Shown here: piece by piece, positions 18,037 through 35,935 of the stretch
Numbering within the stretch: the stretch's first letter is position 1
Layout: the number at the start of each line of letters is the position of its first letter
Assembly: GCA_025453955.1 (NCBI GenBank)
Contig: JALOPJ010000055.1
Location: forward strand, 1-42,148
From: Candidatus Edwardsiibacteriota bacterium
GTDB lineage: Bacteria > Edwardsbacteria > AC1 > EtOH8
Length of the DNA stretch: 42,148 bases
Direction: 5' to 3'
The notes under the pieces: generated by a model
Told to the model about the DNA's origin: nothing
The model's input: the letters and a program-made list of their open reading frames with translations, nothing else
Databases searched by the model: none
Program-made: the position numbers and the translations under genes

Positions 18037-18485
18037 ATGTCATCCCGAGAATGCCCTCTTGCCTTACCAACCGAGGGATGGCACTGCAACAACCCATGAT
18101 AAAATGTCATCCCGGGATTGCATTCCCGCCCTGCGAACTGAGGGATGGCTCATCAAGATATGCATGATTATTATGCCTACATCCACGCCAACAATGACGA
18201 AGTCCTCTACATTGGCGTGACCAATGATCTGCGGCGCAGGATTTACGAGCACAAGACCAAGCTTATTCCCGGTTTTAGCAAAACACATACCTGCGATAGA
18301 TTGATCCACTTCGAGCATTTCACTGACATTAAGTATGCCATCGCTCGCGAAATACAACTAAAGCGGTGGCGTCATTCCAAGAAAGTGGTATTGATCGAAC
18401 TGAATAACAAACAATGGCGTGAAATACCTGTATGATGCATCACCCTTCTATTTGACAGGCATGCTGCTTTTCTCAGGGTGACATT
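18036..18485. mobile_element. GIY-YIG element with imperfect terminal inverted repeats
   Basis: The left end reads AATGTCATCCCGAGA (18036-18050) and the right end, reverse-complemented, reads AATGTCACCCTGAGA (18471-18485): 13 of 15 positions match. Inside, a 47-nt unit is repeated directly at 18036-18082 and 18103-18149 with about 10 differences. The second copy runs into the start of the GIY-YIG gene. The element is clearly more AT-rich than its flanks. This suggests a small mobile unit; no target-site duplication is obvious. Confidence 0.55.
18145..18435 (+). CDS. Single-domain GIY-YIG nuclease
   Basis: This is a 96-residue protein consisting only of a GIY-YIG nuclease domain. It has YYAYIHANND (the GIY strand), VLYIGVTNDLRRRIYEHK (the YIG strand and catalytic Arg), and the metal-binding Glu E69 in AREIQLKRWRH. 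It resembles the small COG2827-type proteins related to the UvrC N-terminal domain. Such proteins can cut DNA at a single strand, but the biological role of this group is unknown. The start is uncertain: ATG 18145 lies inside the repeat, and ATG 18160 would better match relatives that begin just before the GIY strand. It is enclosed by inverted repeats, and its AT-rich codons point to transfer. Confidence 0.75.
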   Translation: MAHQDMHDYYAYIHANNDEVLYIGVTNDLRRRIYEHKTKLIPGFSKTHTCDRLIHFEHFTDIKYAIAREIQLKRWRHSKKVVLIELNNKQWREIPV

Positions 18486-34821: not shown

Positions 34822-35109
34822 TCACTTCCCCGCCGCCGACTCCCAGTCGATGAACTTGTCCACGTCCTTCTTGATCCACGACATCAGGAAGCCGAACACC
34901 GCCCCGTCGTCGACGAATCCCAGCACCGGCGCCAGGAAGTCCGGGATCAGATCGAACGGGCTGACGATGTAGGCCGCGGTGAACAACGCGCCGCCGATGG
35001 TGCGCCAGGGGAACGTCCGGTAGCTGCGCTTGCCGAACGCGCCCCACATCCGGCCGAACCCCCGGACGTAGCCGAACAGGCCCGGGCCCTTTTTCTTCTC
35101 GTCCGCCAT
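34822..35109 (-). CDS. DUF1232 (YkvA-like) small membrane protein
   Basis: This is a 95-residue protein with the DUF1232 core, ALFTAAYIVSPFDLIPDF, then LGFVDDGAVFGFLMSWI, the family's hydrophobic hairpin around a 'SPxDLIPD' turn. The function of DUF1232/YkvA proteins is not established; they occur widely as small membrane proteins. The start at ATG 35109 has a perfect AAGGAGG box upstream. A longer reading frame from 35208 exists only because the 105-bp repeat is open in that frame, so it is rejected. Confidence 0.85.
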   Translation of the reverse strand: MADEKKKGPGLFGYVRGFGRMWGAFGKRSYRTFPWRTIGGALFTAAYIVSPFDLIPDFLAPVLGFVDDGAVFGFLMSWIKKDVDKFIDWESAAGK

Positions 35110-35124
35110 GGTGACCTCCTTGCT

Positions 35125-35229
35125 GTTCGTCATCCTGAGTATGGCATCCCGCCCGGCAAGACGAAGGATCTGTCCCCGGGCTCGTGGGATTCTTCGCGCG
35201 CAAGGCACGGAGTGTTTTTCAGAATGACG
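35125..35229. repeat. 105-bp repeat, copy 1, with inverted ends
   Basis: The unit starts with GTTCGTCATCCTGAG and ends with TTCAGAATGACG. Its ends form an imperfect inverted repeat (CGTCATCCTGAG against CGTCATTCTGAA). It differs from the second copy at 10 positions by hand count and contains no ORF. Confidence 0.8.
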
Positions 35230-35237
35230 GGTCCACT

Positions 35238-35342
35238 GTTCGTCATCCTGAGTATGGCATCCCGCCCGGCAAATCGAAGGATCTGTCCCCGGGCTCGTGA
35301 GATTATTCGCGTGCGGGGCACGGGGCGTTTCTCAGAATGACG
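35238..35342. repeat. 105-bp repeat, copy 2
   Basis: Same orientation and length as the first copy, about 90% identical, separated from it by 8 bp. Its end reads CTCAGAATGACG, close to the terminal motif of the GIY-YIG element (CTCAGGGTGACA). Its right end lies 8 bp from the flavodoxin stop. Confidence 0.8.
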
Positions 35343-35350
35343 TATCGCTG

Positions 35351-35935
35351 TTACTTCAGCTTGTCCGCGAACTCCTTCAGCTTGGCCGCATGCGCGCCCT
35401 TCTTGACATCGCGCTGCAGCAGCGTCAGCTGCGTCGCCGGCTCCAGGCCGGTGAGCTCCTTCATGTCCGCGAAGGTGCCCGCGTCGCCCGAGCCGCCCAT
35501 GGTGCAGAGGAACGCGGCCCTTTTGATCTTGCCCTTGTGCTGCGCCAGGTAGGTCCGCAGCGCCGGCGCGATGTGCGCGCCCCATACCGGCGAGGCCAGC
35601 ACCACCAGGTCGTACTGCGCCGGATCGTGCTTGAGCGGCCCGATCACGGTCTGGGACTTGCGCACGGCGTCGCGGCCGCCGCCCAGGTAGCCGAAGACGC
35701 CGGACCGCTTCTTGGTGTCGGTGATCTGCTCGATGTCCGCGCCGACAGCCGCGGCCAGCTCCTCGCAGACCCGCTTGGTGGTGCCGGTGCGGGAATAGTA
35801 GGCGACCAGGATCTTCATGGGCTTTCCTTGCGTGGTTGTATCGTTGGTTGCTGGTTTGACGGCGGTCTTCTGCTGGGCGAGGGCCGGGGCGAACGCGATC
35901 GCCAGCAGTGACAGGATCGTTGCGAGTCCGGTCAT
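35351..35935 (-). CDS. Flavodoxin-family protein with a signal peptide and an alternative internal start
   Basis: The 194-residue product begins with a signal-like segment (GLATILSLLAIAFAPALAQQ). From residue 40 a flavodoxin fold follows: MKILVAYYSRTGTTKRV holds the FMN-phosphate loop, LVVLASPVWGAHIAPALRTY the next FMN loop, and AAFLCTMGGSGDAGTF the third. Flavodoxins carry electrons in the cytoplasm, so a signal peptide is odd. Both starts have a good Shine-Dalgarno: GGAG before 35935 and AAGGA before ATG 35818. The gene may make a periplasmic form and a cytoplasmic form. It is the fifth gene downstream of the M3-kinase-EFR1 group. Confidence 0.75.
   Translation of the reverse strand: MTGLATILSLLAIAFAPALAQQKTAVKPATNDTTTQGKPMKILVAYYSRTGTTKRVCEELAAAVGADIEQITDTKKRSGVFGYLGGGRDAVRKSQTVIGPLKHDPAQYDLVVLASPVWGAHIAPALRTYLAQHKGKIKRAAFLCTMGGSGDAGTFADMKELTGLEPATQLTLLQRDVKKGAHAAKLKEFADKLK

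Follow-up and report, generated by a model that had tools for sequence, protein, structure and literature searches.

Two tandem repeats without an open reading frame lie at 35.1 kb of the window (the whole 42,148-nt stretch of DNA analysed, from a Candidatus Edwardsiibacteriota bacterium), and their ends had been likened to those of a GIY-YIG element at 18 kb. This locus raises the question of what the repeats are, and of whether the GIY-YIG gene is their partner.

Architecture of the 35.1-kb repeats and the 18-kb element

The two tandem copies described in the original prediction were recovered at 35128-35229 and 35241-35342, each 102 bp long by its exact CGTC...GACG boundaries and ~91% identical to the other; they also aligned as copies of 107 nt at 91% identity, 113 bp apart from start to start. 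Within each copy, two hairpin units of ~42 nt lie inverted to each other, with their heads facing outward. A unit comprises a CGTC head and two complementary 5-nt stem strands, which enclose a loop of ~25 nt that often contains an inner GGC/GCC helix. The left unit possesses the stem ATCCT/AGGAT and the right unit the stem ATTCT/AGAAT. The first dimer is composed of the CGTC-headed unit A1 (35128-35170, plus strand, 43 nt, stem ATCCT/AGGAT) and its inverted partner B1 (35188-35229, minus strand, CGTC head, stem ATTCT/AGAAT). An 11-bp linker (35230-35240, no strand) separates it from the second dimer, formed by A2 (35241-35283, plus strand, stem ATCCT/AGGAT) and B2 (35301-35342, minus strand), the latter having a CGTCATTCTGAG head, a GAATAATC tail and one mismatch in the stem. 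The end motif previously assigned to the two copies is present in copy 2, which ends in CTCAGAATGACG, but not in copy 1, which ends in TTTCAGAATGACG instead. The pair is bordered by two minus-strand genes, one flavodoxin-like (35351-35935) and one of the DUF1232 family (start near 35109), and the doubling itself may have been caused by local duplication. Dimers of the window class mostly join an ATTCT unit to an ATCCT unit; heterodimers were likewise left unexplained in a 2013 survey.

Dozens of copies of the repeat are dispersed over its own genome, a draft of 2.5 Mb in 211 contigs that is 88% complete. A blastn search with the 35.1-kb pair located ~20 places at E<0.01, and counts by exact pattern gave 31 units of the AT[TC]CT class, 19 of the ATTGC class and 28 of the ATTCC class; controls with reversed patterns gave no match here and hardly any overall. 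Units of 23-26 nt in the same genome resemble the classic CGTC REP form. Among 32 units of the genome, picked by their head and tail motifs alone with pairing as no criterion, a head T is accompanied by a tail A in 11 and a head C by a tail G in 20, with 1 exception (31/32 units; Fisher 9e-8). This covariation supports a hairpin that is putatively selected or inherited. Folded as a single hairpin, a whole 35.1-kb copy is no more stable than its shuffles, so the structured part is the unit and not the long inverted pair; an Rfam search of the site returned no credible RNA-family match.

The 18-kb element carries two REP units upstream of its gene (18038-18079 and 18105-18146, plus strand), both TGTC-headed with the stem ATCCC/GGGAT, and one inverted unit downstream (18442-18483, minus strand; TGTC, ACCCT/AGGGT). 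All three are 41-42 nt long and have perfect 5-bp stems. The motifs reported for the element were indeed present, GTCATCCCGAG at 18039 and, at 18472-18482, GTCACCCTGAG in reverse complement, with a further upstream copy at 18106. As the GIY-YIG gene is flanked by hairpin units of like design, the end motif shared with the 35.1-kb repeats is real, although it represents a shared hairpin REP unit and not a simple terminal inverted repeat; the original prediction had overlooked that each copy consists of two REP units. The 11-mer by itself carries little weight, with 6 matches where 2.1 are expected; over the whole unit, the GIY-flanking units share 64-78% identity with the left unit, compared to ~31% for shuffled sequence. 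The supposed REPIN-like relatedness stands as well, the 35.1-kb repeats being inverted REP dimers with the same architecture as the units beside the GIY-YIG gene. That the pair is an ordinary tandem duplication unrelated to this gene, with the motif shared by chance, could draw on the adjacency of the copies and on an 11-mer only ~3x over expectation, but it is hardly credible against the dozens of dispersed copies, the covarying stems and the systematic gene linkage described below.

The gene between these units (18160-18435, plus strand) encodes a small predicted nuclease of ~93 aa, in which PF01541 is the only domain found (E=8.9e-13). Its homologues begin at the ATG at 18160; a longer start at 18145 falls within the second upstream REP unit. 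The conserved catalytic residues (Y, Y-x-G, R, E and N) are invariant over 43 sequences, and the AlphaFold2 model, with a mean pLDDT of 88.9, finds its best structural match in the UPF0213 protein 1zg2, followed by Slx1. The C-terminal motif KRWRHSKK fits K.W.R.[KR]K at all positions bar one.

The window element, with its TGTC-headed units, has its class in common with the 35.1-kb dimers, but its flanks are not their closest copies. In related genera, CGTC-headed ATTCT and ATCCT units flank GIY-YIG genes (loci L037 in G002, L069 in G009 and L073 in G008), and this pair of units matches the pair in the 35.1-kb dimers. A closer cognate gene of these dimers may lie in the missing part of the draft genome, or may have been lost.

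Linkage between the REPs and a clade of GIY-YIG genes

The homologue sample comprises 241 genomes, plus 80 named loci from GTDB genomes, and covers Proteobacteria, Nitrospirae, Planctomycetes, Chloroflexi, CPR bacteria and others. REP units with heads outward are located within 300 bp on each side of 97 of the 141 genes of the GIY-YIG clade that have enough flank, compared to 0/33 other GIY-YIG genes and 2/1148 random positions in the same loci. The count of 97/141 is a lower bound, since the conservative flank regex misses some true flanks, among them the CCTC-headed units beside the gene of Sinorhizobium meliloti and the CGTCGCC units (CGTCGCCCCG) beside that of Novosphingobium aromaticivorans. 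A looser flank test that accepts any 6-nt stem, at reduced sensitivity, gave 64/141 against 0/33. In the 80 named loci, the density of REPs in the expected orientation is 4.4-4.6 per kb up to 200 bp from the gene and ~0.15 per kb at 1-5 kb. Pair orientations in the analysed loci, a set biased to GIY loci, were heads-out in 100 cases, heads-in in 60 and tandem in 58. The clade has no member among 50,697 phage records.

Genes for DUF559, the 23S IVP (four-helix-bundle) and the Y1 transposase were considered as alternative partners and rejected, as none is flanked by REPs on both sides in REP-rich genomes (0/13, 0/20 and 0/21 genes, respectively). The count for Y1_Tnp bears directly on the proposal that the REPs are moved by a RAYT or another Y1 transposase, as with GTAG REPs, to which the overall similarity of GTAG and CGTC REPs (PMC3733652) and the analogous layout of REPtrons lend some appeal. 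In addition to the 0/21 genes flanked in REP-bearing genomes, no Y1_Tnp match at E<=1e-8 was obtained in the own genome (88% complete), and none was found by Di Nocera et al. either (PMC3733652), which leaves a Y1 mover very improbable. The same counts weigh on the proposal that REPs serve the host at transcript ends, in mRNA stability or in DNA topology, and that the GIY-YIG gene merely tolerates or uses them. REPs are generally intergenic and have been assigned such roles (PMC3733652); passive hitchhiking, however, fails to predict units on both sides of one clade and at none of the DUF559, 23S IVP, Y1 and other GIY-YIG genes, nor does it predict the matching of classes described below, and we regard it as improbable.

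The refutation test set by the original prediction, whether the repeats are equally common in genomes without the GIY-YIG gene, was run and brought no refutation: 39/44 genomes that contain the clade, but 39/197 that lack it, reach at least five REP matches (p=7e-18). After removal of the own family, the numbers are 31/36 and 37/195 (p=1e-14). The association between REP abundance and the clade is thus strong, not exclusive. One exception left unexplained is the complete genome G071, which contains ~598 CGTC-type REP matches and no clade homologue. In the genome G098 (L218, C6:92968-93057), a decayed GIY-YIG remnant with ~30 aa matched is situated between paired CGTC REPs, with no intact gene; gene decay of this kind may explain some of the REP-rich genomes without the gene.

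Further analysis of the clade revealed a correspondence between the C-terminal motif of the protein and the stem of the adjoining units, where K.G.R goes with ATTGC, K.W.R.WK with ..CC and K.W.R.[KR]K with ..CT. Single-class matches of the motif-predicted class number 20 for GC, 78 for CC and 8 for CT, with few exceptions. The correspondence extends over the genome: in 36 genomes with typed genes, the gene class present predicts the abundant REP class (Mann-Whitney 0.0016, 0.0003 and 0.00005), and a permutation test on class abundance gave 0/5000. Contrasts on the gene tree for the match of motif and stem comprise two well-supported ones for GC (the glycine type), both concordant, and no informative one for CT. 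With so few independent transitions, common ancestry of the gene and its flanks may explain the match, and the motif serves as a lead only.

Lineage-specific insertions and a proposed mode of spread

Comparison with relatives revealed lineage-specific insertions. The spacer that carries the window GIY-YIG element is ~490 bp long; the same spacer is without the element in nine relatives and measures ~130 bp in the sister species G001. On contig 69 of the own genome, two dimers are present compared to one in G001, with flanks ~95% identical, so the unit of change is the whole dimer. In Azospirillum lipoferum 4B, the plasmid AZO_p3 (L400, 255.5 kb) carries a REP dimer, a GIY-YIG gene and a second REP dimer between sufB and sufC of the Fe-S assembly operon, a site that is empty in A. 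ramasamyi, A. oryzae and strain B510, the flanking genes of which are 95-98% identical. As these empty sites contain no REP, the REPs and the gene appear together. No target-site duplications beyond chance were found.

The 35.1-kb dimers are absent from G001, where the spacer (contig 56) is occupied by a REP pair from another class, as if REPs had arrived independently in each genome. On plasmid p1 of Planktothrix agardhii (L406), a GIY-YIG gene with REP pairs on each side has a type IIL MmeI gene as one neighbor and the DISARM gene drmA as the other.

The empty sites also bear on the view that the GIY-YIG gene is a homing-type parasite, which would cleave REP dimers and insert copies of itself there, while something else makes and spreads the REPs. 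Homing is well established among other GIY-YIG nucleases, REPs occur in many genomes that lack the gene, and at the GIY locus on contig C179 of the own genome the sister G001 has REP units and no gene. Against this stand the Azospirillum sufB-sufC sites, empty of any REP, the class matching, which reaches genome-wide copies beyond the flanks, and the protein itself, which consists of a single domain of ~93 aa and has none of the extra DNA-binding domains seen in homing enzymes. We therefore consider a homing parasite unlikely.

The reading that we hold probable is that the 35.1-kb repeats are two tandem REPIN-like dimers, of a class that has a small single-domain GIY-YIG nuclease as its dedicated partner. 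We read the arrangement REP > GIY-YIG gene < REP, as at 18.04-18.48 kb, as the autonomous form, and the ORF-less dimer as the non-autonomous form. The best-supported explanation, we infer, is that the nuclease both cuts the units and is responsible for spreading them. In the mechanism that we propose, a REP unit would extrude as a hairpin when single-stranded or supercoiled, and the nuclease, the nearest solved folds of which are UPF0213 and Slx1, would recognise the stem and head and nick close to the base of the hairpin. The repair or replication machinery of the host would then place a copy of the dimer, alone or together with the gene, at new intergenic sites, leaving no target-site duplication. 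GIY-YIG enzymes hydrolyse DNA and, to our knowledge, do not join strands, so integration would need host factors.

Comparison with known nucleases and repeat systems

In sequence and fold, the closest matches of the protein are the small GIY-YIG proteins of UPF0213 type (1zg2, 1ywl) and Slx1, with which it has the GIY-YIG domain in common. Slx1 is a structure-selective nuclease acting on branched DNA, and to judge from the fold, a hairpin substrate would fit. They differ in their surroundings, as the literature searched holds no description of flanking repeats for UPF0213-type proteins or Slx1, and the other GIY-YIG genes tested here are unflanked (0/33). GIY-YIG homing endonucleases likewise are GIY-YIG nucleases encoded within a mobile element; compared to them, the window element lacks an intron and has REPs as its ends. 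Instead of a modular DNA-binding domain and an interrupted target, we found a single domain, and no REP target at the Azospirillum empty sites. Full-text searches of the open-access literature found no paper linking GIY-YIG to REPs; a 2025 REP survey mentions neither GIY-YIG nor transposases, and in the 2006 GIY-YIG phylogenomics paper a search by terms turned up nothing on palindromic repeats.

CGTC-tagged REPs are widespread in Neisseria, Rickettsia, Rhizobiaceae and sphingomonads, include Neisseria dRS3 and Rickettsia RPE-4/RPE-6, and have no associated transposase found (Di Nocera et al. 2013, PMC3733652). That survey (PMC3733652) described CGTC REPs in, among other taxa, Azospirillum lipoferum, N. 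aromaticivorans, S. meliloti and Neisseria. In Neisseria gonorrhoeae (L156, L399), a clade GIY-YIG gene is located within a cluster of dRS3-type repeats (CGTCATTCCCGC..). The units described here resemble the CGTC superfamily in their terminal head (CGTC, TGTC or CCTC), in a stem that opens with paired AT, in the predominance of inverted dimers and in heterodimers of two stem types. There are differences in the stem, which is a continuous 5 bp around a ~25-nt loop in the window class and 8-9 bp around a 4-5 nt loop in CGTC-tagged REPs, and in the tail, which is CTG and CCC in the window units and CCA in CGTC-tagged REPs, although the short classes found here do have CCA. Given the mismatch in stem and loop, the window units are a relative, not a member, of the families CGTC-1 to 4. 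Moreover, the window class is associated with a GIY-YIG gene, whereas CGTC-tagged REPs were reported without a transposase. With a class-matched gene partner, the question of the CGTC REP transposase becomes testable with one enzyme and one substrate.

The system also resembles REPINs and the RAYT-REP systems termed REPtrons (PMC3116915, PMC3733652). As in a REPIN, two inverted REPs and a spacer are gained as a unit, and in the autonomous form a small gene is enclosed by two inverted REPs. The RAYT dependence of REPINs has no counterpart here, as no Y1_Tnp match was obtained in the own genome (88% complete) and none of the 21 Y1_Tnp genes is flanked on both sides by these units. With a predicted GIY-YIG nuclease in place of the HUH/Y1 tyrosine transposase, a different chemistry is required. 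Altogether, we lean somewhat towards a multi-phylum class of mobile elements in which a single-domain GIY-YIG protein replaces the RAYT, mobilises its own CGTC REP dimers and represents the missing partner of the CGTC superfamily. If so, a mobile repeat family would be supported by a hydrolytic nuclease without known strand-transfer chemistry, which implies repair-driven copying.
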